IMG/VR virus record: IMGVR_UViG_3300042988_000374
Span: 85,890 to 149,889 of that record
From: a virus
DNA: 64,000 bases
Reading direction: 5' to 3' (one strand)
Part shown: piece by piece, positions 6,320 through 57,284 of the stretch
Numbering within the stretch: the first letter of the stretch is position 1
How the letters are laid out: each line of letters begins with the position of its first letter
The notes under the pieces: model-generated
The model's input: only the letters and a program-made list of their open reading frames with translations
Told to the model about the DNA's origin: nothing
Database searches by the model: none
Position numbers and translations under genes: made by a program

Positions 6320-7051
6320 TTAACGTGATTGTGCTGGGATTAAGTATTCGTAGTCTGCCATGCCAGAGTCTACGGTGATCTTCATAGCACCAGCATCACT
6401 GATGTATACTTTCTTGTCGCCTTGAAGATCCATGATTGCCAAGAATTGCTTTACTGGCCAGCTCCATGCTTTGCTCAATGTGCCAGTAACGCCGCCTTCA
6501 AACACGAAGTTACCAGAGTGACTAGACACGTCACCAAAGAAGATTTTTAAATCGCCACCGTCTGTCTTAGTAACGAACGTGGTTTCTTCGCTATTAGCAG
6601 AGGCTTGTTTCTTCATACGAGCAACGTTTGCGACTTTTGGTTCAAACTCAACGTTCCAAGTAGCACCAGCAAATTTAACTGGTTTAATCTTTTCTTCAAC
6701 AATGGTTTGCGACATCAAGCGATAGTTGTTGATGAAGTCACCAGTTGATGTTTCAAAGTGAATGGAAGCTGGTACGTTCTCACCATCTTTGTCTTGGTGA
6801 GTCATCTTCACTGTAGCAGTGGCATCATACTCTTCAAAAGATAAGATAGTGCGAAGTTTGCCCAAATTAGGCATACCGAATGTGCCAGCAAATTGATCAT
6901 TAGGAGTTTTAAATTTACCACTGATGATAACTGTACGATCTTCTGCGATACTAGCTAACGCGGTTTCTTTGTCAGTACCTGATACTTTGATCAAGTCGAT
7001 AAAGCCAAGTTGGGCTGTGTGTGCGATTACGTCTTGTAAATGATTTTTCAT
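6320..7051 (-). CDS. 45: Sliding clamp (gp45-like DNA polymerase processivity factor)
   Basis: T4-type trimeric clamp that tethers the polymerase to DNA and, in T4, also activates late transcription. The 243-residue length is close to T4 gp45 (228 aa). The overall pattern fits: IDLIKVSGTDKETALASIAE near the N-terminus, FAGTFGMPNLGKLRTILSFE in the middle and a C-terminal MADYEYLIPAQSR. It has its own sigma70 promoter and an AAGGAAA ribosome-binding site. The late promoters here fit a clamp-dependent late transcription system. Confidence 0.87.
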   Translation of the reverse strand: MKNHLQDVIAHTAQLGFIDLIKVSGTDKETALASIAEDRTVIISGKFKTPNDQFAGTFGMPNLGKLRTILSFEEYDATATVKMTHQDKDGENVPASIHFETSTGDFINNYRLMSQTIVEEKIKPVKFAGATWNVEFEPKVANVARMKKQASANSEETTFVTKTDGGDLKIFFGDVSSHSGNFVFEGGVTGTLSKAWSWPVKQFLAIMDLQGDKKVYISDAGAMKITVDSGMADYEYLIPAQSR

Positions 7052-26120: not shown

Positions 26121-26828
26121 TCATGCTCGTTTTTGCAATCGATAATGCTTCCTGATATAGGAATCACCAAGATACAAGATGAGCAGCGTAAACATCTCTT
26201 CACTATCAAAGTCGATAAAGTGGTTATTGTGAGACCTGACATAATACCAACCGGTACTGTTGCTGTTTGTCCACAATTTTAAGGCAGCGCAAGGATAGTA
26301 ATCAGGGTACTGGGCAAAGAATGACTTTAGGCTAGCTTTAAACTCAGGAGGAGACGACTTATCTTTGAGATACACTCTGTACTGGTGCGCCGGAGTATTT
26401 TTGAACTCCATGACATCTGGTGTATTTGGTGCAAAGGCTTCCGCTGCTTCAAAGTCCGTGAACTCCATCTTAGCGGCGCGACCTATAAACTTCTCATCAT
26501 TGGTATAAACTCTGACTTTTGAGCCAGCATACCAACCATTGTAGGAGATCGAGTGTTCCTTCTTTAGATACTTGTTCTTTAGGTCAATGAGTTTTTTAAC
26601 TTCACTGTAGTCTATAGCCAGTAGCGATTCGATATAAGGAGTCGAGCCCTTGTTGTAGAAGTACTGCTGATTAAGCGCCTCTTGAACTCGCAGAACGTAT
26701 TCGTCTATGGTGGCTGACTCCCTAATTAGATGCGCGCCTGACATTTCAAACGACACACGGTACTTGTACTTGTTATAGTACAAGGACTGTCGGTGCTCAG
26801 ATTTTAATTCATAAACTGATGATGCCAT
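26121..26828 (-). CDS. Hypothetical protein (235 aa)
   Basis: No family recognised. The protein is rich in Tyr and charged residues. The segment WYAGSKVRVYTNDEKFIG resembles an immunity or display domain only vaguely. It overlaps the 3' end of clpA by 20 nt, so it is co-translated with it, and could be an adaptor or substrate partner of that unfoldase. Its stop codon lies inside the TnpB remnant's terminal TTCA. Confidence 0.65.
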   Translation of the reverse strand: MASSVYELKSEHRQSLYYNKYKYRVSFEMSGAHLIRESATIDEYVLRVQEALNQQYFYNKGSTPYIESLLAIDYSEVKKLIDLKNKYLKKEHSISYNGWYAGSKVRVYTNDEKFIGRAAKMEFTDFEAAEAFAPNTPDVMEFKNTPAHQYRVYLKDKSSPPEFKASLKSFFAQYPDYYPCAALKLWTNSNSTGWYYVRSHNNHFIDFDSEEMFTLLILYLGDSYIRKHYRLQKRA

Positions 26829-29070
26829 CTTCGCCTACCTTCTTTTTACGGACAGTAGACTTTACTGTAAATTCAATTTGATTATCGACCAACTTTGTGT
26901 TGATGGTTGCTGATTGCAGGCGTTCAAATAAGATGCGCTTAGACAGTGGCACACGAATTAATTCATCGATTTTACGTGCTAGTGGTCTGGCGCCCATCTT
27001 GTCATCGTAGCCTTCTTTTGCTAGATGTTCAATCACATCTTCGCTTAAATTAAGAACGAGATTGTGCTTTGTTTTGAGACTGTCTTTGAGTTCATTGGTG
27101 AACTTGAGGACTACCTTTTTGATGGCAATAGTGTCTAGCTTATTAAACTTGACAATCTGGTCAATACGGTTACGCAACTCAGGCTTGAAAAACTCTTTGA
27201 GTGCTCGGTCATCTTCACCGTCTTTTGATTGCTTGCCGAATCCAATGTTGTTGCGTTCACCATCAGCACTGCCTAAGTTAGAGGTCATGATAATGATGGT
27301 GTTCTTGGCATTCACAGACTTGCCGTTAGTGCCAGTGATTTTGCCTTCATCTAGTAACTGTAGGAACAAGTTGTAAACATCAGGGTGAGCTTTTTCAACT
27401 TCGTCAAACAACATGATGGCATATGGGTTCTTAGAGAGGTCGTTGATGATTTTGCCACCGCCTAAGTTACCATCTTCATAGCCTACATAGCCAGGAGGCG
27501 CACCAATGAGTGCGGCAACGGAGTGCTTCTCTTGGTACTCGGACATATCGTAGCGTAATAGAGGCATATCTAGATACTCTGACAGTGCTTTTGCACACTC
27601 TGTTTTACCAGTACCTGTTGGACCAGTGAACAAGAATGAAGCAATTGGTTTGTTCTCGTTACCAATGCCCGCTTGACTCACATAGATTCGATCTAGTACA
27701 GTATCTACTGCACTGTCTTGACCATACAAGCGAGACTTAACGTTGGCTTCAAGGTCGATCATGCGTGACGAATTGTCAGTGCTCATCTTATCAACTGGAA
27801 TACCAGTAGTCTTGCATACTTGTTCATTGACAAGAGCTTCGGTGATATGCACACCAGAATTACCAGCTACTCGTTGAACTGCACAAGCACCGTCTAGCAA
27901 GTCGATTGATTTATCAGGATTCTTACGTTCATGTAAGTAACGTGAACTCAATTCAACCGCAGCTTTAATTGCGTCTGCGTCAATAGTAACGTTGTGGAAC
28001 TCATTCAAACGTGGAGCTAAGCCAGTTAAGATTTTAACAGTGGTCTCGTCATCTGGTTCATTGATATCAACACGGTAGAAGCGGCGCATTAACGCACGGT
28101 CCTTCTCAAATGACTCGTAGTACTCTTCCCATGTAGTAGATGCGATAATCTTTAGATTGCCCTTAGTAATAGCAGGCTTGATCATATTGGCAAAGTCCAT
28201 TGATGAGTTAGTGCCGCTACCAGCACCGCGCATAGTGTGTGCTTCGTCGATAAAGAGGATTGCTTTTTCTTTAGCGGCAAGGGCAGCAAATACGTCTTTT
28301 ACTTTTTCTTCAAAGTCGCCACGATATTTACTACCAGCAAGTAGAGAGCCAATCTCCAAGGAATATACTTCATGGCCTTTTAGGAATTCTGGAGCAGTGC
28401 CATCAAAGATGCGTTGTGCAATGCCCTCAGCAATTTGGGTTTTGCCGACGCCCGCATCGCCCACCATTAAAACGTTGGCTTTAAACTTCTTAGCAAGAAT
28501 GGTAACAATCTTGTTTACTTCATCGTCGCGGCCAATCATAGGCTCTAACTTCTTCTGTTGAGCACGTTCAGTTAGATTAATCGTGTGTTCTGCAAGGAGC
28601 TCCGATGCACGACCAGCTGACATTTTACCAGAAGTGGTACCTGACTTGGCACCAAATACAAATTCCTTCTTTGTAACACCCCACTTTAATAAGAAGTAAC
28701 TGGCGTGTGAATTGGTCTCACTCATGATACTGATATACAAGTCTTCAATATCCATTTGAGTTCTACCAGTAAAGATAACTCGTGCTAGCGCTGTGTTGAT
28801 TACTCGCTCTAAGGTAGCAGTGCGCTTTGGATTTACTGGCTTGCCTGGTTGTGGTTCAACAACAATGTGAGTTAATGTTTGCACGTAATTGTCTACATCA
28901 GCTGCTAGTGCAGGGACATCAATGTTGAGATTGTTTAAACGTGATTTAAATGTCTCGTTTGCCAACATACCAAATAAGATATGCTCTAGTGTGACGTACC
29001 CATGATTGTAGCGCTGGGCATACACAATAGATGAATCTACGATTTGTTGAATGTCAGGATTGTTAGTCAT
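26809..29070 (-). CDS. clpA: ClpA-like AAA+ unfoldase
   Basis: Class I Clp/Hsp100 protein of 753 aa. The N-terminal double Clp_N repeat is present (HGYVTLEHILFGMLANE). The D1 Walker A is GDAGVGKT (204-211) and Walker B is ILFIDEAHTM. D2 has GPTGTGKT (about 480) and IMLFDEVEKAHPDVYN, with NLGSADGERN as sensor region. I see no clear IGL/IGF loop for ClpP binding, so it may act as a disaggregase or with a host protease. It lies 3 nt after dnaJ, giving a phage-encoded chaperone pair. Confidence 0.92.
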   Translation of the reverse strand: MTNNPDIQQIVDSSIVYAQRYNHGYVTLEHILFGMLANETFKSRLNNLNIDVPALAADVDNYVQTLTHIVVEPQPGKPVNPKRTATLERVINTALARVIFTGRTQMDIEDLYISIMSETNSHASYFLLKWGVTKKEFVFGAKSGTTSGKMSAGRASELLAEHTINLTERAQQKKLEPMIGRDDEVNKIVTILAKKFKANVLMVGDAGVGKTQIAEGIAQRIFDGTAPEFLKGHEVYSLEIGSLLAGSKYRGDFEEKVKDVFAALAAKEKAILFIDEAHTMRGAGSGTNSSMDFANMIKPAITKGNLKIIASTTWEEYYESFEKDRALMRRFYRVDINEPDDETTVKILTGLAPRLNEFHNVTIDADAIKAAVELSSRYLHERKNPDKSIDLLDGACAVQRVAGNSGVHITEALVNEQVCKTTGIPVDKMSTDNSSRMIDLEANVKSRLYGQDSAVDTVLDRIYVSQAGIGNENKPIASFLFTGPTGTGKTECAKALSEYLDMPLLRYDMSEYQEKHSVAALIGAPPGYVGYEDGNLGGGKIINDLSKNPYAIMLFDEVEKAHPDVYNLFLQLLDEGKITGTNGKSVNAKNTIIIMTSNLGSADGERNNIGFGKQSKDGEDDRALKEFFKPELRNRIDQIVKFNKLDTIAIKKVVLKFTNELKDSLKTKHNLVLNLSEDVIEHLAKEGYDDKMGARPLARKIDELIRVPLSKRILFERLQSATINTKLVDNQIEFTVKSTVRKKKVGEDGIISL

Positions 29071-40629: not shown

Positions 40630-40637
40630 TATTTATA
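40630..40637 (-). promoter_or_regulatory. Late promoter (TATAAATA)
   Basis: Perfect T4 late octamer overlapping the TAA of the 1521-residue gene, with an AGGAAC ribosome-binding site before the ATG at 40609. Confidence 0.78.
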
Positions 40638-51653: not shown

Positions 51654-51985
51654 GTATATTTCAACAGGTAATAGGTGTAGTCAACTTCTTTGAGCCTGGC
51701 AGTGATTGCGTATTTGATGCCATAAGTTGAGTAGTCGTTGTTGCGATGCCACATGGGTGTCTCTACTGCGTGTTCCATAACCCATGCACCAGCTTCACTT
51801 TTTTCCCATTCCCACATCGGACCACTTGCATACATATCAGGGTCGTCAAGGTCAGATACCGTGAATTGATGCACGACTGAGTTAACCACCCGATGTGCTA
51901 CATTATCAATTACCAAGACACTAGGAGTGATCTCATTAGGGATCATTCCTAGATATCCTCGTTCTGGTGGGAATGAAGCTGCCAT
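51650..51985 (-). CDS. Hypothetical protein (111 aa)
   Basis: Compact, aromatic-rich protein with ENPMWEWEKSE-like acidic segments (MWEWEKSEAGAWVMEHAVET) and the tail DYTYYLLKYT. No family recognised. It shares a TAATG junction with thyA, so it is translated in the same transcript. Confidence 0.65.
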   Translation of the reverse strand: MAASFPPERGYLGMIPNEITPSVLVIDNVAHRVVNSVVHQFTVSDLDDPDMYASGPMWEWEKSEAGAWVMEHAVETPMWHRNNDYSTYGIKYAITARLKEVDYTYYLLKYT

Positions 51986-52896
51986 TAGACTGCCATAGGA
52001 GCTTTAATTGGTGGATGACATTCGTAATTGACTAGTTGAATGTCGTCCATGGTGAACTTGTCGATGTCTTTAATCTCTGGGTTTAACCATAAGACTGGTG
52101 CCTTCTTTGGTTCACGAGTCAGTTGTTCTTTAACTTGCTCGATATGATTTTCATAGATGTGAGTATCACCAGTAGATACGATTAATTCACCTACAGCTAG
52201 ACCACATACTTGTGCAATCATGTGTGTTAGTAAGGCGTAGCTGGCATAATTGAAGGGGCTCCCAAGGAATGTATCCGCCGAACGCTGGTACATATGGCAA
52301 CTCAGTCGGTGATCTCTGCTAACATGGAATTGACTCATTACATGACATGGAACAAGGCACATCTGATTCAATTCACCTACATTCCAAGCAGAGATAATAT
52401 GTCTGCGACCGTATGGGTCCGCTTTGATACCATCAATTAAGTTCTTTACTTGGTCAATCTCTTGTAGCGCAAGACCAGGGCCGCTATGATAGCTATTACC
52501 AAAATCGTCATAGTATGTTCCTTCATTTTGTTGTGTTGTAGTGCGCCATTTGCGCCATTGTACGCCATAGACTCGTCCTAAGTCTCCTTCGAATTGTGCT
52601 CGAGGTTTCCAATAAGGTGCAAGCGCATTTGGTGTCCAGATTGTGACTTTACCTTCGCTGGTACCATGTGTGATTTCTGCTAGACGGCGCTCATCTCCGG
52701 AGCCTTCCAAAAACCAAAGCAACTCTGCTTTACACGCATTGAATGCTAGTTTCTTTGTGGTAACTGCTGGGAATGAGTCTGCTAAGTTGAATCGGATTTG
52801 TTTGCCGAATAAGGCGCGTGTGCCTACACCAGTGCGGTCATCTCGTGTTTCACCAGTCTCTAGGACTTCTGTTAATAAATTTAAATAGTTTTGCAT
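51985..52896 (-). CDS. thyA: Thymidylate synthase
   Basis: Converts dUMP to dTMP with methylene-tetrahydrofolate, supplying thymidine for phage DNA. DRTGVGTRALFGKQIRF, the catalytic Cys in CLVPCHVMSQF (Cys184), RSADTFLGSPFNYASYALLT and GDTHIYENHIEQ are all present. Length 303 aa. No intron or insertion is seen, unlike T4 td. A promoter (TTGACG, 16 bp, TAAAAT) ends 6 nt before the ATG, giving a probable leaderless early mRNA. Confidence 0.96.
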   Translation of the reverse strand: MQNYLNLLTEVLETGETRDDRTGVGTRALFGKQIRFNLADSFPAVTTKKLAFNACKAELLWFLEGSGDERRLAEITHGTSEGKVTIWTPNALAPYWKPRAQFEGDLGRVYGVQWRKWRTTTQQNEGTYYDDFGNSYHSGPGLALQEIDQVKNLIDGIKADPYGRRHIISAWNVGELNQMCLVPCHVMSQFHVSRDHRLSCHMYQRSADTFLGSPFNYASYALLTHMIAQVCGLAVGELIVSTGDTHIYENHIEQVKEQLTREPKKAPVLWLNPEIKDIDKFTMDDIQLVNYECHPPIKAPMAV

Positions 52897-52960: not shown

Positions 52961-53260
52961 TCACAGACCTCTGAGTAATTCGTCAGTCTCTGGTTGAATA
53001 ATCTCTGAGATACCTTCGATATCTAAGATAAACTCTACTGATACTGTCTGACCGTGATATTGCTCTAGCTTATCACTAATTACTGTCTCAACTTCTTCTG
53101 AGTCTAGACCTTGTTCAAATAAGAGTTGAACATTCACAGTTCGCTGGCGTCTGCCTTCCAGTTTCAAGATTAATTTCTTAATCACTTCCACTGGGATACG
53201 TTCTTTGGGAACATCCTGAATGATATTTTCCCACTTGGTGAACTCGTCTTTATCGAACAT
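52961..53260 (-). CDS. Conserved T4-like phage hypothetical protein (99 aa)
   Basis: Start at 53260 (MFDKDEFTKWENIIQ) with GGAG five nt upstream. Pattern IPVEVIKKLILKLEGRRQRT, GLDSEEVETVISDKLEQYHG and the end QPETDELLRGL is one I recall from conserved proteins near structural genes in T4-like aquatic phages. Function unknown. Confidence 0.72.
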   Translation of the reverse strand: MFDKDEFTKWENIIQDVPKERIPVEVIKKLILKLEGRRQRTVNVQLLFEQGLDSEEVETVISDKLEQYHGQTVSVEFILDIEGISEIIQPETDELLRGL

Positions 53261-53300
53261 GTTAACTCCATTCTTCTTGTTGCGGAGTATCATCATGATG

Positions 53301-53972
53301 TTACTCTGCTACAGTATTTAGCTTGGAGCTCGTTCTTTTTGCACGGGTCTTCTTTACTGGTTGTGCTGCTGGTGCTGCTGGTAATAACGCCTGAGCTTCG
53401 CCACGGAGACGTTCACTTTCTGCCAATAAACCTTTTGCTTCATTTGCCATACGTTCAGCTTGAGCTAGTAATCCATTAGCGATTGAGTTATCATCTAGCG
53501 CACCCATTGACATATCGGTTGATGGTTGTTCGCCGCGCATACGACGAGCAACGTCAGCAGGGTCTTGGAGACCTCTGGAAGCGTCCATCTCTGCCATCTT
53601 GCGAACTGCTGCTTCGCCCTTTTCCATCTCGTCCAAGATGGTGTTTAACTCACTGAGCTTGATTTTAGTATTAGGTGTTGGTGTCATCATGACCAGGTCA
53701 GTGTTGACCTTCTTCATCATGCCTTCATGATGCAGGACCTGAAGAATGATTTTGCCGTCCATGGTATACGAACGATTGAGTTGGTCACCTAAGTCTTTAG
53801 CTGATTGACCACTTGGACTCTCAATAGCGGTCATCATTGGGTCGTGAATATTTCTGTTGATCAGGTCGGTGTATACTACGATACACATATGTGGTTCGCC
53901 TGGTACCTCACGGAAGATTACTGCGACTTTGCGGTCGCCCATTTTACCAATGTGTCTGAGGAAGTTTGCCAT
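53301..53972 (-). CDS. Conserved probable virion protein (223 aa)
   Basis: Begins MANFLRHIGKMGDRKVAVIF, a beta-rich N-terminal domain with HMCIVVYTDLINRNIHDPMM. It is followed by helices and a low-complexity Ala-rich coiled coil (LLAQAERMANEAKGLLAESE) with a basic end. Family not named. A GTTAAATA late octamer and an AAGGAGACAG ribosome-binding site precede it, so it is likely structural. Confidence 0.7.
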   Translation of the reverse strand: MANFLRHIGKMGDRKVAVIFREVPGEPHMCIVVYTDLINRNIHDPMMTAIESPSGQSAKDLGDQLNRSYTMDGKIILQVLHHEGMMKKVNTDLVMMTPTPNTKIKLSELNTILDEMEKGEAAVRKMAEMDASRGLQDPADVARRMRGEQPSTDMSMGALDDNSIANGLLAQAERMANEAKGLLAESERLRGEAQALLPAAPAAQPVKKTRAKRTSSKLNTVAE

Positions 53973-54452: not shown

Positions 54453-54758
54453 TTATGCAGAATCGTAGATGAGGATACCAGATTCCCTGATCTCCTCTTT
54501 TGTTTTTGTGTCATCTTCATTGAATGCTTCCCAAATTTGATCAGCGCTCAACTCGGAATTCACCTGCCATATCTCATGGCTCCTTGAACCAGAAGATGCT
54601 GCCGTTACAATCATACCGCGTACTGGGTCACCAAGATAATCAATACCGTTTTCCGATTGAAGTAACCGCAGTACCAGTTCTTGATCCCATACGGTGTAAT
54701 CAAGCACTTGATATACTGCGGAGTTACTCCACCAGACTATAAATGTGTGACTAGACAT
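54453..54758 (-). CDS. Hypothetical protein (101 aa)
   Basis: Soluble protein (TFIVWWSNSAVYQVLDYTVW, then an acidic C-terminal half). It shares a 1-nt overlap with the VWA gene stop and could be part of that functional unit, but no family is recognised. Confidence 0.65.
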   Translation of the reverse strand: MSSHTFIVWWSNSAVYQVLDYTVWDQELVLRLLQSENGIDYLGDPVRGMIVTAASSGSRSHEIWQVNSELSADQIWEAFNEDDTKTKEEIRESGILIYDSA

Positions 54759-56041
54759 TATTCCTCGTAATGAGCAGCAACACCAAACTCTTCTTTGAAG
54801 CTAGGGTTACCAAAGATTACCCAGGTCGTGTCACAATAATCCCGATCACCATGACCGCCAAAAAAGTAACCATCAGTAAACACAATCAATCGATTAGGCA
54901 CAACGCCCTGTTCTTTAAGATAGTCAAAGATACAGTTTGGATCAGTGCCACCACCGCCACCTGGTACATACTCAGTGATACTCTCAAGGTTCTCAGATGT
55001 GAATTCTTGTTCAGCACTCACACCAGTATCCCATGAGAACACTCGGATTTTATAACCGGCAAATGAATCCATGATACCTTGAATCTCACCAAGGAAGATT
55101 TTTAATTCACGAGTGCCAATTGAACCAGAAGTATCAATCGCAATAGTAACTTCAACTTCTTCACCAGGAGTTTGTCCAGGCATAATAGCATCCATGTGCC
55201 AAGAGCGACGAGACGGGCGCATGAATGAGTAGTCTGTTTTAATGGTAGATGTCAAGTTAGCTTGAATAAGTTCACGCCATGGCATTTTAGGCTGTTCAAT
55301 ATCATCAACCATACGAGCGACTTCACCAGGTAGAGAGTGTCCAGCATTCTTAGCAGCTTTAGCAGCGTTAATGATGTTCTCCTTCATCTCCTGACGAAGT
55401 TTATCACGCTCTTCTTGGGACATTTTACCAGGCTTCTTGCCATCAGTGCCATCACCTTCACCATCGTCGTCACCGCCATCTTCCATGTGTTCATCTAACA
55501 GCTGGTCAATCAAGCTATCAAGTGACATCTTAGTGGCATTTTGCATCAAGTCATCATAGATCCAGTCAGCAGCTTTACCATCATACTTGGTCTCGTATAA
55601 GCAAGGAACCGATGTGATAAACGTGCCAACACGGTGACGCTTCAAATCAGCATTAACTGCATAGTCACAGGCGATGTTCCAGATTTGTGCATCACGATCA
55701 CCGCGACGATCCATGTGTGCAAAACACACGTGAAGAATCTCATGACCGACTAGGAATTCAACTTCACCAGCAGACAGGGAGGTGATGAATTTAGCATTGT
55801 AATAAAAGTTGCGACCATCAGTAGCAGCTGTGCTTAACCATTCACTGGCATTGATTAATTTAAGACGAGTGGCTAAGTTGCCAAAGAATGAATGACGGAA
55901 CAAGAGTCCTGTTCGCGCAATGATAAGTGCATCACGCGCGGCGTTGTCTTCGGCAGAGGTACTCTTGCCAAGAACATCTGGCATCATCTTATCTTTGTTG
56001 GCAGTTGTTTTTGATTTTGCTTTTGCTTCGATTGTGGTCAT
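54758..56041 (-). CDS. VWA-domain protein with metallopeptidase-like HEILH motif
   Basis: Start at 56041 (MTTIEAKAKSK) with GGAG upstream. The N-terminal half carries a zinc-type FLVGHEILHVCFAH (His100, Glu101, His104) of the VWA-peptidase-like (DUF2201) kind. An acidic linker (GGDDDGEGDGTDGK) follows. The C-terminal VWA domain has the MIDAS motif TIAIDTSGSIG (about 290), GGGGTDPN and LIVFTDGYF. It pairs with the MoxR ATPase encoded just upstream, the classic MoxR/VWA chaperone arrangement. Confidence 0.85.
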   Translation of the reverse strand: MTTIEAKAKSKTTANKDKMMPDVLGKSTSAEDNAARDALIIARTGLLFRHSFFGNLATRLKLINASEWLSTAATDGRNFYYNAKFITSLSAGEVEFLVGHEILHVCFAHMDRRGDRDAQIWNIACDYAVNADLKRHRVGTFITSVPCLYETKYDGKAADWIYDDLMQNATKMSLDSLIDQLLDEHMEDGGDDDGEGDGTDGKKPGKMSQEERDKLRQEMKENIINAAKAAKNAGHSLPGEVARMVDDIEQPKMPWRELIQANLTSTIKTDYSFMRPSRRSWHMDAIMPGQTPGEEVEVTIAIDTSGSIGTRELKIFLGEIQGIMDSFAGYKIRVFSWDTGVSAEQEFTSENLESITEYVPGGGGGTDPNCIFDYLKEQGVVPNRLIVFTDGYFFGGHGDRDYCDTTWVIFGNPSFKEEFGVAAHYEE

Positions 56042-56061
56042 CTGATTCTCCAAAATATGGT

Positions 56062-56090
56062 ATTGTACTCTCACCCGGGTACCTTGTCAA
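56062..56090 (-). promoter_or_regulatory. Early promoter of VWA gene
   Basis: TTGACA (56090-56085), 17 bp, TACAAT (56067-56062). It lies inside a GTACTCTCAC/GTGAGAGTAC inverted repeat that may be an operator or overlapping terminator. Confidence 0.65.
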
Positions 56091-56106
56091 GTGAGAGTAC
56101 CTTTTA

Positions 56107-57213
56107 TTAACGCAAGGAGGCTGCTTTAATAAATTTGCCGTACTTTTCATTAAACTCCGTGAAGTTCTTCATCTTCATTGGATTCATGTTGATGCCATAA
56201 GATGTGAGTGCAGTCTTAGAGCCCATGATAACCAATTCAGTCTCAAAGTTCTTCATCATATAACCAAGGAAGTTATCTACCATCTTCATGAGGTCGTCCG
56301 GTTTGACTTCTGGATTCTTAGACGCATCGCGCAACTCATAGCACATAGCTACAGTGAGTGAGTACATGGCAGAGATTTCTTTAACATCAAGGTCAGTTAC
56401 TTTACCAGAGAGGATATCTTCAGCTTTAGGCATACGATCAACGAACTTGCGGTGTGCCATAAACTTGGCAGCAAGACCTTCACCAACAGAGCCGGCGATA
56501 AGTGTGAAGAGTGTGTCGTAGTCAGTGTTGTCTTCATTCTTCAAGAGGTCAGACACAAAGCTCCATGAGCGTGGTGTAGCAAATGCTTTTGAAGATGACT
56601 TAGCGTCAAATTCATACATATCAGATTTGGCATAAGATAGGTAACCAACAACGTCACGGTGCACATCGTTGTTGAGTGCCCATGATTGCCATGCGGCGAA
56701 GTCAGGCTTCATTTCGATGTGAACAAAACGGTTAGCTAGTGGCATTGGCATACGGTAAGTAACACCTTTATCAGTGTCACGGTTACCAGCAGCAACGATC
56801 ACTACGTTGTCTGGCAATTTGTATTTGCCGATGCGACGGTTAAGGATAAGTTGATAGCCAGCAGCTTGAACTGAGGGAGGTGCGCTGTTCATTTCGTCTA
56901 GGAACAGGACGACGATTGGGTACTGGGAGGCGAATTCTTCGTCAGGGAGCTCCGCTGGGGCAGCCCAACTCATTTTGTTCTGCTCTTTATCGTAATATGG
57001 AATGCCTCGAATATCGGTAGGCTCCATTTGTGCCATACGTACATCAAGTACGGCACCGCCTAGTTCCTCGGCGGTTTGTGCCACGATATCAGACTTGCCC
57101 ACGCCTGGGGGTCCCCAAATAAAAACTGGTCGTTTTGCTGAGAATGCTGTGAATAGGGCTTTGCGTACTTGAGGGATAGTTACGCTGTGTTGATCTGATA
57201 CTTTAGAGGTCAT
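56107..57213 (-). CDS. MoxR-type AAA+ ATPase
   Basis: AAA+ ATPase of the MoxR/RavA group. Walker A is GPPGVGKS (34-41), followed by QMEPTDIRGIPYYD. Walker B is VVLFLDEMNSAP (about 101), sensor 1 is VIVAAGNRDTD and an Arg-finger region is MPLANRFVHIEM. Such ATPases remodel or insert metals into target proteins together with VWA partners, here the next gene. Targets are unknown; host takeover or particle assembly are both possible. It has its own sigma70 promoter. Confidence 0.88.
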   Translation of the reverse strand: MTSKVSDQHSVTIPQVRKALFTAFSAKRPVFIWGPPGVGKSDIVAQTAEELGGAVLDVRMAQMEPTDIRGIPYYDKEQNKMSWAAPAELPDEEFASQYPIVVLFLDEMNSAPPSVQAAGYQLILNRRIGKYKLPDNVVIVAAGNRDTDKGVTYRMPMPLANRFVHIEMKPDFAAWQSWALNNDVHRDVVGYLSYAKSDMYEFDAKSSSKAFATPRSWSFVSDLLKNEDNTDYDTLFTLIAGSVGEGLAAKFMAHRKFVDRMPKAEDILSGKVTDLDVKEISAMYSLTVAMCYELRDASKNPEVKPDDLMKMVDNFLGYMMKNFETELVIMGSKTALTSYGINMNPMKMKNFTEFNEKYGKFIKAASLR

Positions 57214-57255: not shown

Positions 57256-57284
57256 AGTGTATTACAGGTTTTATGGTTTGTCAA
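57256..57284 (-). promoter_or_regulatory. Early promoter of MoxR gene
   Basis: TTGACA (57284-57279), 17 bp, TACACT (57261-57256). The -35 contains the stop codon of the upstream gene. AAAGGAAT precedes the ATG. Confidence 0.7.

Follow-up and report, generated by a model that had tools for sequence, protein, structure and literature searches.

A phage-encoded MoxR-type ATPase and VWA/metallopeptidase-like partner, related to N4 gp24/gp25 and to a jumbo-phage pair, as a probable protein-remodelling machine

MoxR-type AAA+ ATPases that work with a VWA-domain partner are represented in cells by NorQ/NorD, CbbQ/CbbO and RavA/ViaA, whose clients are cellular enzymes; in NorQD, the MIDAS residues are needed for activation of the client and not for binding of the ATPase (PMC9976466). 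Virus-encoded counterparts have also been described. For p618/p892 of the archaeal virus ATV, MoxR–VWA binding and stimulation of the ATPase have been shown, and the proteins have been linked to tail development (PMC4124505). Among phages, N4 gp24 (“AAA+ ATPase”) and gp25 are listed among the proteins common to N4-like phages (PMC7650795) and reportedly belong to the middle class of genes (PMC4193335). A 2021 comparative study further described, in group 2.2 jumbo phages, a MoxR AAA+ ATPase–vWA chaperone/cochaperone pair in which the vWA domain is fused to an N-terminal metallopeptidase (PMC7824862), and Iyer and colleagues propose that it acts in the assembly and processing of virions (PMC7824862). 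An AAA+ protein and a small metalloprotease are also combined in yeast, where Wss1 (a minigluzincin) works with Cdc48 (AAA+) on proteins stuck on DNA (PMC4559962).

Here we analyse such a pair in a stretch of 64,000 nucleotides (the window), which belongs to a linear virus record of 149.9 kb. A preliminary description had reported a MoxR gene followed by a VWA gene, and both open reading frames were recovered where it had placed them, in that order on the minus strand (Table 1), separated by a spacer of 65 nt. The mechanical start of the partner reading frame is a GTG at 56074, and an alternative ATG at 56041 has a GGAG just 5′ of it. Because the GTG falls inside the promoter and hairpin described below and the GGAG precedes the ATG, the latter is the likely start codon on sequence grounds and is used throughout.

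Table 1 Features of the pair and its surroundings in the window
Feature	Position	Strand	Details
Sigma-70-type promoter of ATPase gene	57256..57284	minus	TTGACA-17-TACACT, directly 5′ of gene
MoxR-type AAA+ ATPase gene	57213-56107	minus	368 aa
ATPase motifs			Walker A GPPGVGKS K40; Walker B D106 E107; sensor-1 N144; R162 (arginine finger) and R215 (sensor 2), roles given by position
13-bp hairpin overlapping partner promoter	56065..56100	minus	-21.4 kcal/mol, z -3.5
Sigma-70-type promoter of partner gene	56062..56090	minus	TTGACA-17-TACAAT, directly 5′ of gene
VWA/metallopeptidase-like partner gene	56041-54758	minus	427 aa
Partner zinc-type motif HEILH			H100-E101-x-x-H104-x4-H109, numbering of 427-aa protein
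Partner MIDAS			D303-S305-S307...T366...D390, C-terminal VWA domain
Conserved downstream gene, phrog_15894	53301..53972	minus	79/107 loci adjoining pair
Conserved downstream gene	52961..53296	minus	111 aa
Thymidylate synthase ThyA	51985..52896	minus	End of conserved string

Comparison with the described systems showed that the pair is already known: it is the N4 gp24/gp25 pair and the MoxR–vWA–metallopeptidase pair of jumbo phages. The interpretation given in the preliminary description thus stands in part, in that its comparison with bacterial MoxR/VWA chaperone systems is borne out by motifs, profiles and fold and the promoters are early-type by sequence, whereas the novelty that it implied does not survive, the pair having been named in jumbo phages in 2021 (PMC7824862). 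The window proteins belong to the same families as gp24/gp25 (phrog_1297 and phrog_1314), in the same order and with intact motifs. They differ from them in sequence (about 25% identity), in promoters (the N4 genes, of the middle class, are without the host-type promoters of the window pair) and in the gene that follows the pair, which is a dCTP deaminase gene in N4 and thyA in the window. The domain plan is identical to that of the jumbo-phage proteins ASV44729.1/ASV44728.2, as judged from the published description (PMC7824862), and the 121Q-like phages JP4 and phAPEC6, together with Serratia phage BF, share with the window both the gene order and a nearby thyA, the JP4 and BF partners being 34–37% identical to the window partner. 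ATV p618/p892 resemble the pair as a virus-encoded MoxR protein with a VWA partner, and there the interaction is experimentally known; ATV is, however, an archaeal virus and its pair is reported without a peptidase domain (PMC7824862). The cellular NorQ/NorD, CbbQ/CbbO and RavA/ViaA systems share the combination of MoxR ATPase and VWA partner, NorQ and CbbQ2 being the closest folds to the window ATPase, but their partners carry other N-terminal domains.

The ATPase matched the MoxR core family AAA_3 (Pfam PF07726) at 31.4 bits against a cut-off of 27, and phrog_1297 with an E-value of 2.4e-101. Its motif residues, R215 included, are nearly invariant: across the first locus set, the Walker A Lys was kept in all 80 readable rows, the Walker B Asp in 79/81 and Glu in 80/81, and both the sensor-1 Asn and R162 in 81/81. 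AlphaFold2 models of both proteins were built from alignments of the window and its viral-contig relatives. That of the ATPase (mean pLDDT 86.5) gave as its best Foldseek matches in the PDB the NorQ chains of NorQD complexes (1.3e-8), with CbbQ2 (6l1q) also among the best. The bpMoxR profile of MoxR–VWA–beta-propeller ternary conflict systems scored 20.6 bits against the ATPase, below its cut-off of 27. PADLOC had no model for the partner and matched the ATPase weakly, in the AAA region only (E 0.0015 or weaker), and we therefore rejected membership in a known anti-phage defence system for lack of a credible match.

In the partner, a DUF2201_N domain (PF13203, putative metallopeptidase; 7.6e-43, 147.5 bits against a cut-off of 23.2) is followed towards the C-terminus by a DUF2201 VWA-like domain (PF09967; 4.3e-11, 43.4 bits against a cut-off of 26.4), and the protein matched phrog_1314 with an E-value of 6e-106. 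The HEILH and intact MIDAS motifs reported in the preliminary description are both present (Table 1). Foldseek searches with the AlphaFold2 model, which is of moderate confidence (mean pLDDT 74.4, pTM 0.53), returned VWA domains, including MDN1-MIDAS and NorD, and the minigluzincin selecase MJ1213 (probability 1.00, TM 0.53 on the target). Selecase was also the top sequence-profile match of the N-terminal region (E 0.001); the HExxH domain is thus matched by fold and by profile, although selecase itself lacks a VWA domain. Motif and predicted fold together point to a zinc peptidase-like protein of the minigluzincin type with putative proteolytic activity. PHROG 1314 is nevertheless labelled “HNH endonuclease”, and the label is repeated in PHROGs-based annotations of many phage records. 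A Pfam scan of the partner contained no HNH or other nuclease family, the two DUF2201 domains account for the protein, its fold matches are VWA domains and a metallopeptidase, and its conserved residues are those of HExxH and MIDAS. An HNH endonuclease is hardly credible in the face of these matches and was rejected; the label of phrog_1314 is wrong, the protein being a DUF2201 metallopeptidase/VWA protein. This corrected annotation is new here and would, if adopted, clean up many phage annotations.

The two domains of the partner differ in how strictly their sites are kept. MIDAS was intact in all 53 partner sequences surveyed and in 83/83 of the first set of loci, in each case with one T-to-S replacement. 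For the zinc motif, the same 53 sequences retained H100 in 52, E101 in 47, H104 in 52 and H109 in 51. H109 is replaced by Asp in Vibrio phi 1 and RHph_Y38, and D126 is likewise conserved, making both residues candidates for the third zinc ligand. The catalytic Glu is missing in three separate lineages: it is Gln in Agrobacterium phage Atu_ph07, the whole peptidase site is gone in Agrobacterium phage OLIVR2, and it is His (HHxxH) in four bacterial-genome homologues. Since MIDAS is universal in the survey whereas the catalytic Glu has been lost in three lineages, we infer that the MIDAS-bearing adaptor and the ATPase form the core, with an adaptor function that looks essential, and that peptide cleavage, although usual, may be dispensable; proteolysis cannot, in any case, be the universal function of the pair. 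Loss of Walker or MIDAS residues, which would have counted against the proposed pairing, was not seen in close homologues; only the peptidase site has decayed, joined in a single distant phage by the ATPase site. The natural variants with a dead protease site and an intact MIDAS are new here and offer ready-made separation-of-function tools. In the distant phage, OLIVR2 (L084), Ser replaces the Walker B Asp and Gly replaces R215 of the ATPase, so that peptidase site, Walker B Asp and R215 are all degenerate in a single phage that keeps MIDAS. The four HHxxH homologues (L133–L135 and L137) lie in bacterial-genome MoxR/VWA operons, also with MIDAS intact.

Searches of phage records with tblastn found the ATPase in 848 (a count in which other AAA proteins may be included) and the partner in 781, the phages concerned being N4-like Schitoviridae, Vequintavirinae, 121Q-like and other jumbo phages, and phages of Thermus, Moorella and others. 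A survey of co-occurrence, suggested in the preliminary description, found both proteins encoded in 22/22 named phage genomes examined, by adjacent genes in most and otherwise within a few kb. The pair belongs to the core genes of N4-like phages and of several lineages of jumbo phages. Phage T4 was said to have no such pair, and profiles of phrog_1297 and phrog_1314 indeed gave no match to either protein in its genome (NC_000866). Outside named phages, the MoxR gene adjoined the partner gene in all ten bacterial-genome loci fetched and in 3/3 relatives from metagenome-assembled genomes. DUF2201_N scored above its cut-off in eleven of 299 genomes sampled from one bacterial phylum, some of these in phage-like contigs. 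A scan of genome contigs with the Moorella partner as query gave no relative; with alignment A2 it gave four loci in metagenome-assembled genomes, three of them with a near-full-length partner. A close relative of the pair was also observed on a 335-kb contig (L110) of a Neomarinimicrobiota metagenome-assembled genome, binned as bacterial and possibly a jumbo-phage genome.

Each gene of the pair is preceded by its own promoter of the host sigma-70 type (Table 1), in agreement with the preliminary description, which had called the promoters early-type. Sites scoring at least 10/12 precede the MoxR gene in 57 and the partner gene in 59 of 80 related loci, compared with 5.8% of windows drawn at random from the same loci; these 80 loci are relatives of each other and hence not independent. 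The region as a whole holds as many sigma-70-like sites as the shuffle mean, and it is placement and conservation that support the claim of individual host-type promoters, early-type by sequence and kept in relatives. These conserved individual promoters are new here. A T4-type late promoter (TATAAATA) was sought near the pair and not found, the two minus-strand copies in the window lying at 40637 and 13948. The hairpin that overlaps the partner promoter is similar to the promoter-early stem-loops described for T4-like phages, as cited in PMC4503421. In two close relatives (L002, near 5945, and L003, near 5891) the same hairpin layout is found with completely different arm sequences, which suggests from these few (three) genomes that the structure and not the sequence is kept; the hairpin is absent from most of the more distant relatives. 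A second sigma-70 promoter embedded in a hairpin was observed elsewhere in the window (7105-7077), before a gene starting at 7051.

The pair also stands at the head of a conserved gene string, likewise new here, which runs in the window lineage and in 121Q-like jumbo phages from MoxR and partner through (phrog_13789) and the phrog_15894 gene to a thymidylate synthase gene. The string ends in thyX in most relatives and in thyA in the window and the 121Q-like phages. ThyA and the non-homologous ThyX (L004:9099-9782) thus occupy the same place downstream of the pair, and the families phrog_15894 and phrog_13789 (the latter at L069:8496-8738) are conserved directly downstream in several jumbo-phage lineages. 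Jumbo phages have virion genes upstream of the pair. The genes commonly found after it in Schitoviridae are those for dCTP deaminase, or for helicase and DNA polymerase, and the neighbours differ again in 30-3, vequintaviruses and Atu_ph07. The rIIA gene is found within about 11 kb of the pair in those members of Schitoviridae and Vequintavirinae that have it (L066, L071, L072, L076, L083, L084, L085 and L087); it was sought and not found in the record of the window and in relatives G402–G404.

We propose, with a probability of about 0.7, that the pair is an ATP-driven MoxR/VWA protein-remodelling machine with an accessory protease domain, acting early to middle in infection. By analogy with NorQ/NorD and related systems, the ATPase would form a hexameric ring to which the partner binds, a divalent metal in MIDAS would hold a client protein by an acidic patch, and ATP hydrolysis would pull or open that client, which the N-terminal zinc domain of the partner could, in most phages, also cut. 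Expression of both proteins in the early to middle phase of infection is probable, given a separate host-type promoter for each gene and the reported middle-gene status of the N4 orthologues. What was observed is the identity of the genes, their domain content, the integrity of their motifs, their co-occurrence, their promoters and their neighbourhood, and the proposal is built on these, whereas the client is a guess; the literature searched yielded no client or phenotype, and the available text of the CRISPRi-ART study, which tests N4 rII genes, yielded nothing on gp24/gp25 essentiality. As a guess, we rank phage virion or ejection proteins needing remodelling or trimming first, at somewhat less than even odds, then phage replication or nucleotide-metabolism complexes, an unlikely choice, and last host or defence proteins, which we consider unlikelier still. 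N4 grown in laboratory E. coli makes the question of the client testable now.

These clients correspond to different views of what the pair does. As a virion-assembly chaperone with a processing protease, it would fold, assemble and trim structural proteins, as proposed by Iyer and colleagues (PMC7824862) and with the ATV proteins as precedent in tail development. Virion genes adjoin the pair in JP4, Serratia BF and phAPEC6, and a mid-expressed second structural module lies near gp24/gp25 in N4-like roseophages. Mass spectrometry of phAPEC6 virions detected the MoxR orthologue gp265c (6 peptides) and not the partner gp264c (PMC7247149); the same list also contains RecA-like, SSB, PhoH-like and ThyA proteins (PMC7247149), so gp265c may be a contaminant or carry-over, and the pair is missing from the lists of virion proteins published for the N4-like LIT1 and RPP1/RLP1. 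A single virion client common to all is made less likely by the occurrence of the pair in podo- and myoviruses whose hosts differ widely, the protease site is lost in some members, and the promoters of the window lineage are host-type and not late. The assembly proposal is supported by the viral precedent and the structural neighbours and weakened by the early-type promoters and by the distribution of the pair over phages with unrelated virions; we regard it as tentative and a little less probable than its negation. A remodeller acting on the machinery of replication or nucleotide metabolism, or on proteins trapped on DNA in the manner of Wss1–Cdc48 (PMC4559962), would accord with the minigluzincin-type fold of the peptidase domain, with the shared logic of an AAA+ protein plus a small metalloprotease, with early-type promoters and with the repeated occurrence of the pair, in unrelated lineages, near genes for dCTP/dCMP deaminase, ThyA/ThyX, helicase and DNA polymerase. 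Such genes, however, cluster in early/middle regions of phages anyway, no DNA-binding domain was found in the pair, and the lineages with other neighbours noted above do not conform; we consider this function doubtful.

A device for host takeover or counter-defence, which remodels or cleaves a host protein, would likewise be expected to have early-type promoters, and both the wide distribution of the pair among lytic phages and the proximity of rIIA in Schitoviridae and Vequintavirinae are consistent with it. However, rIIA was not found in the record of the window or in its relatives G402–G404, PADLOC offered no credible match, and a core, slowly lost pair, as in N4-like phages, is atypical for a counter-defence gene, leaving such a role rather improbable. 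Still less probable, in our view, is a phage counterpart of Wss1–Cdc48, an AAA+/metalloprotease machine acting early to clear or cut a protein complex of the host or on DNA, in which the VWA adaptor would be indispensable and some phages, their protease dead, would retain a pure remodeller.

A second AAA+ gene was also observed in the window (26809-29070), the 753-aa product of which matches PHROG 4871, “ATP-dependent protease” (2.5e-237).
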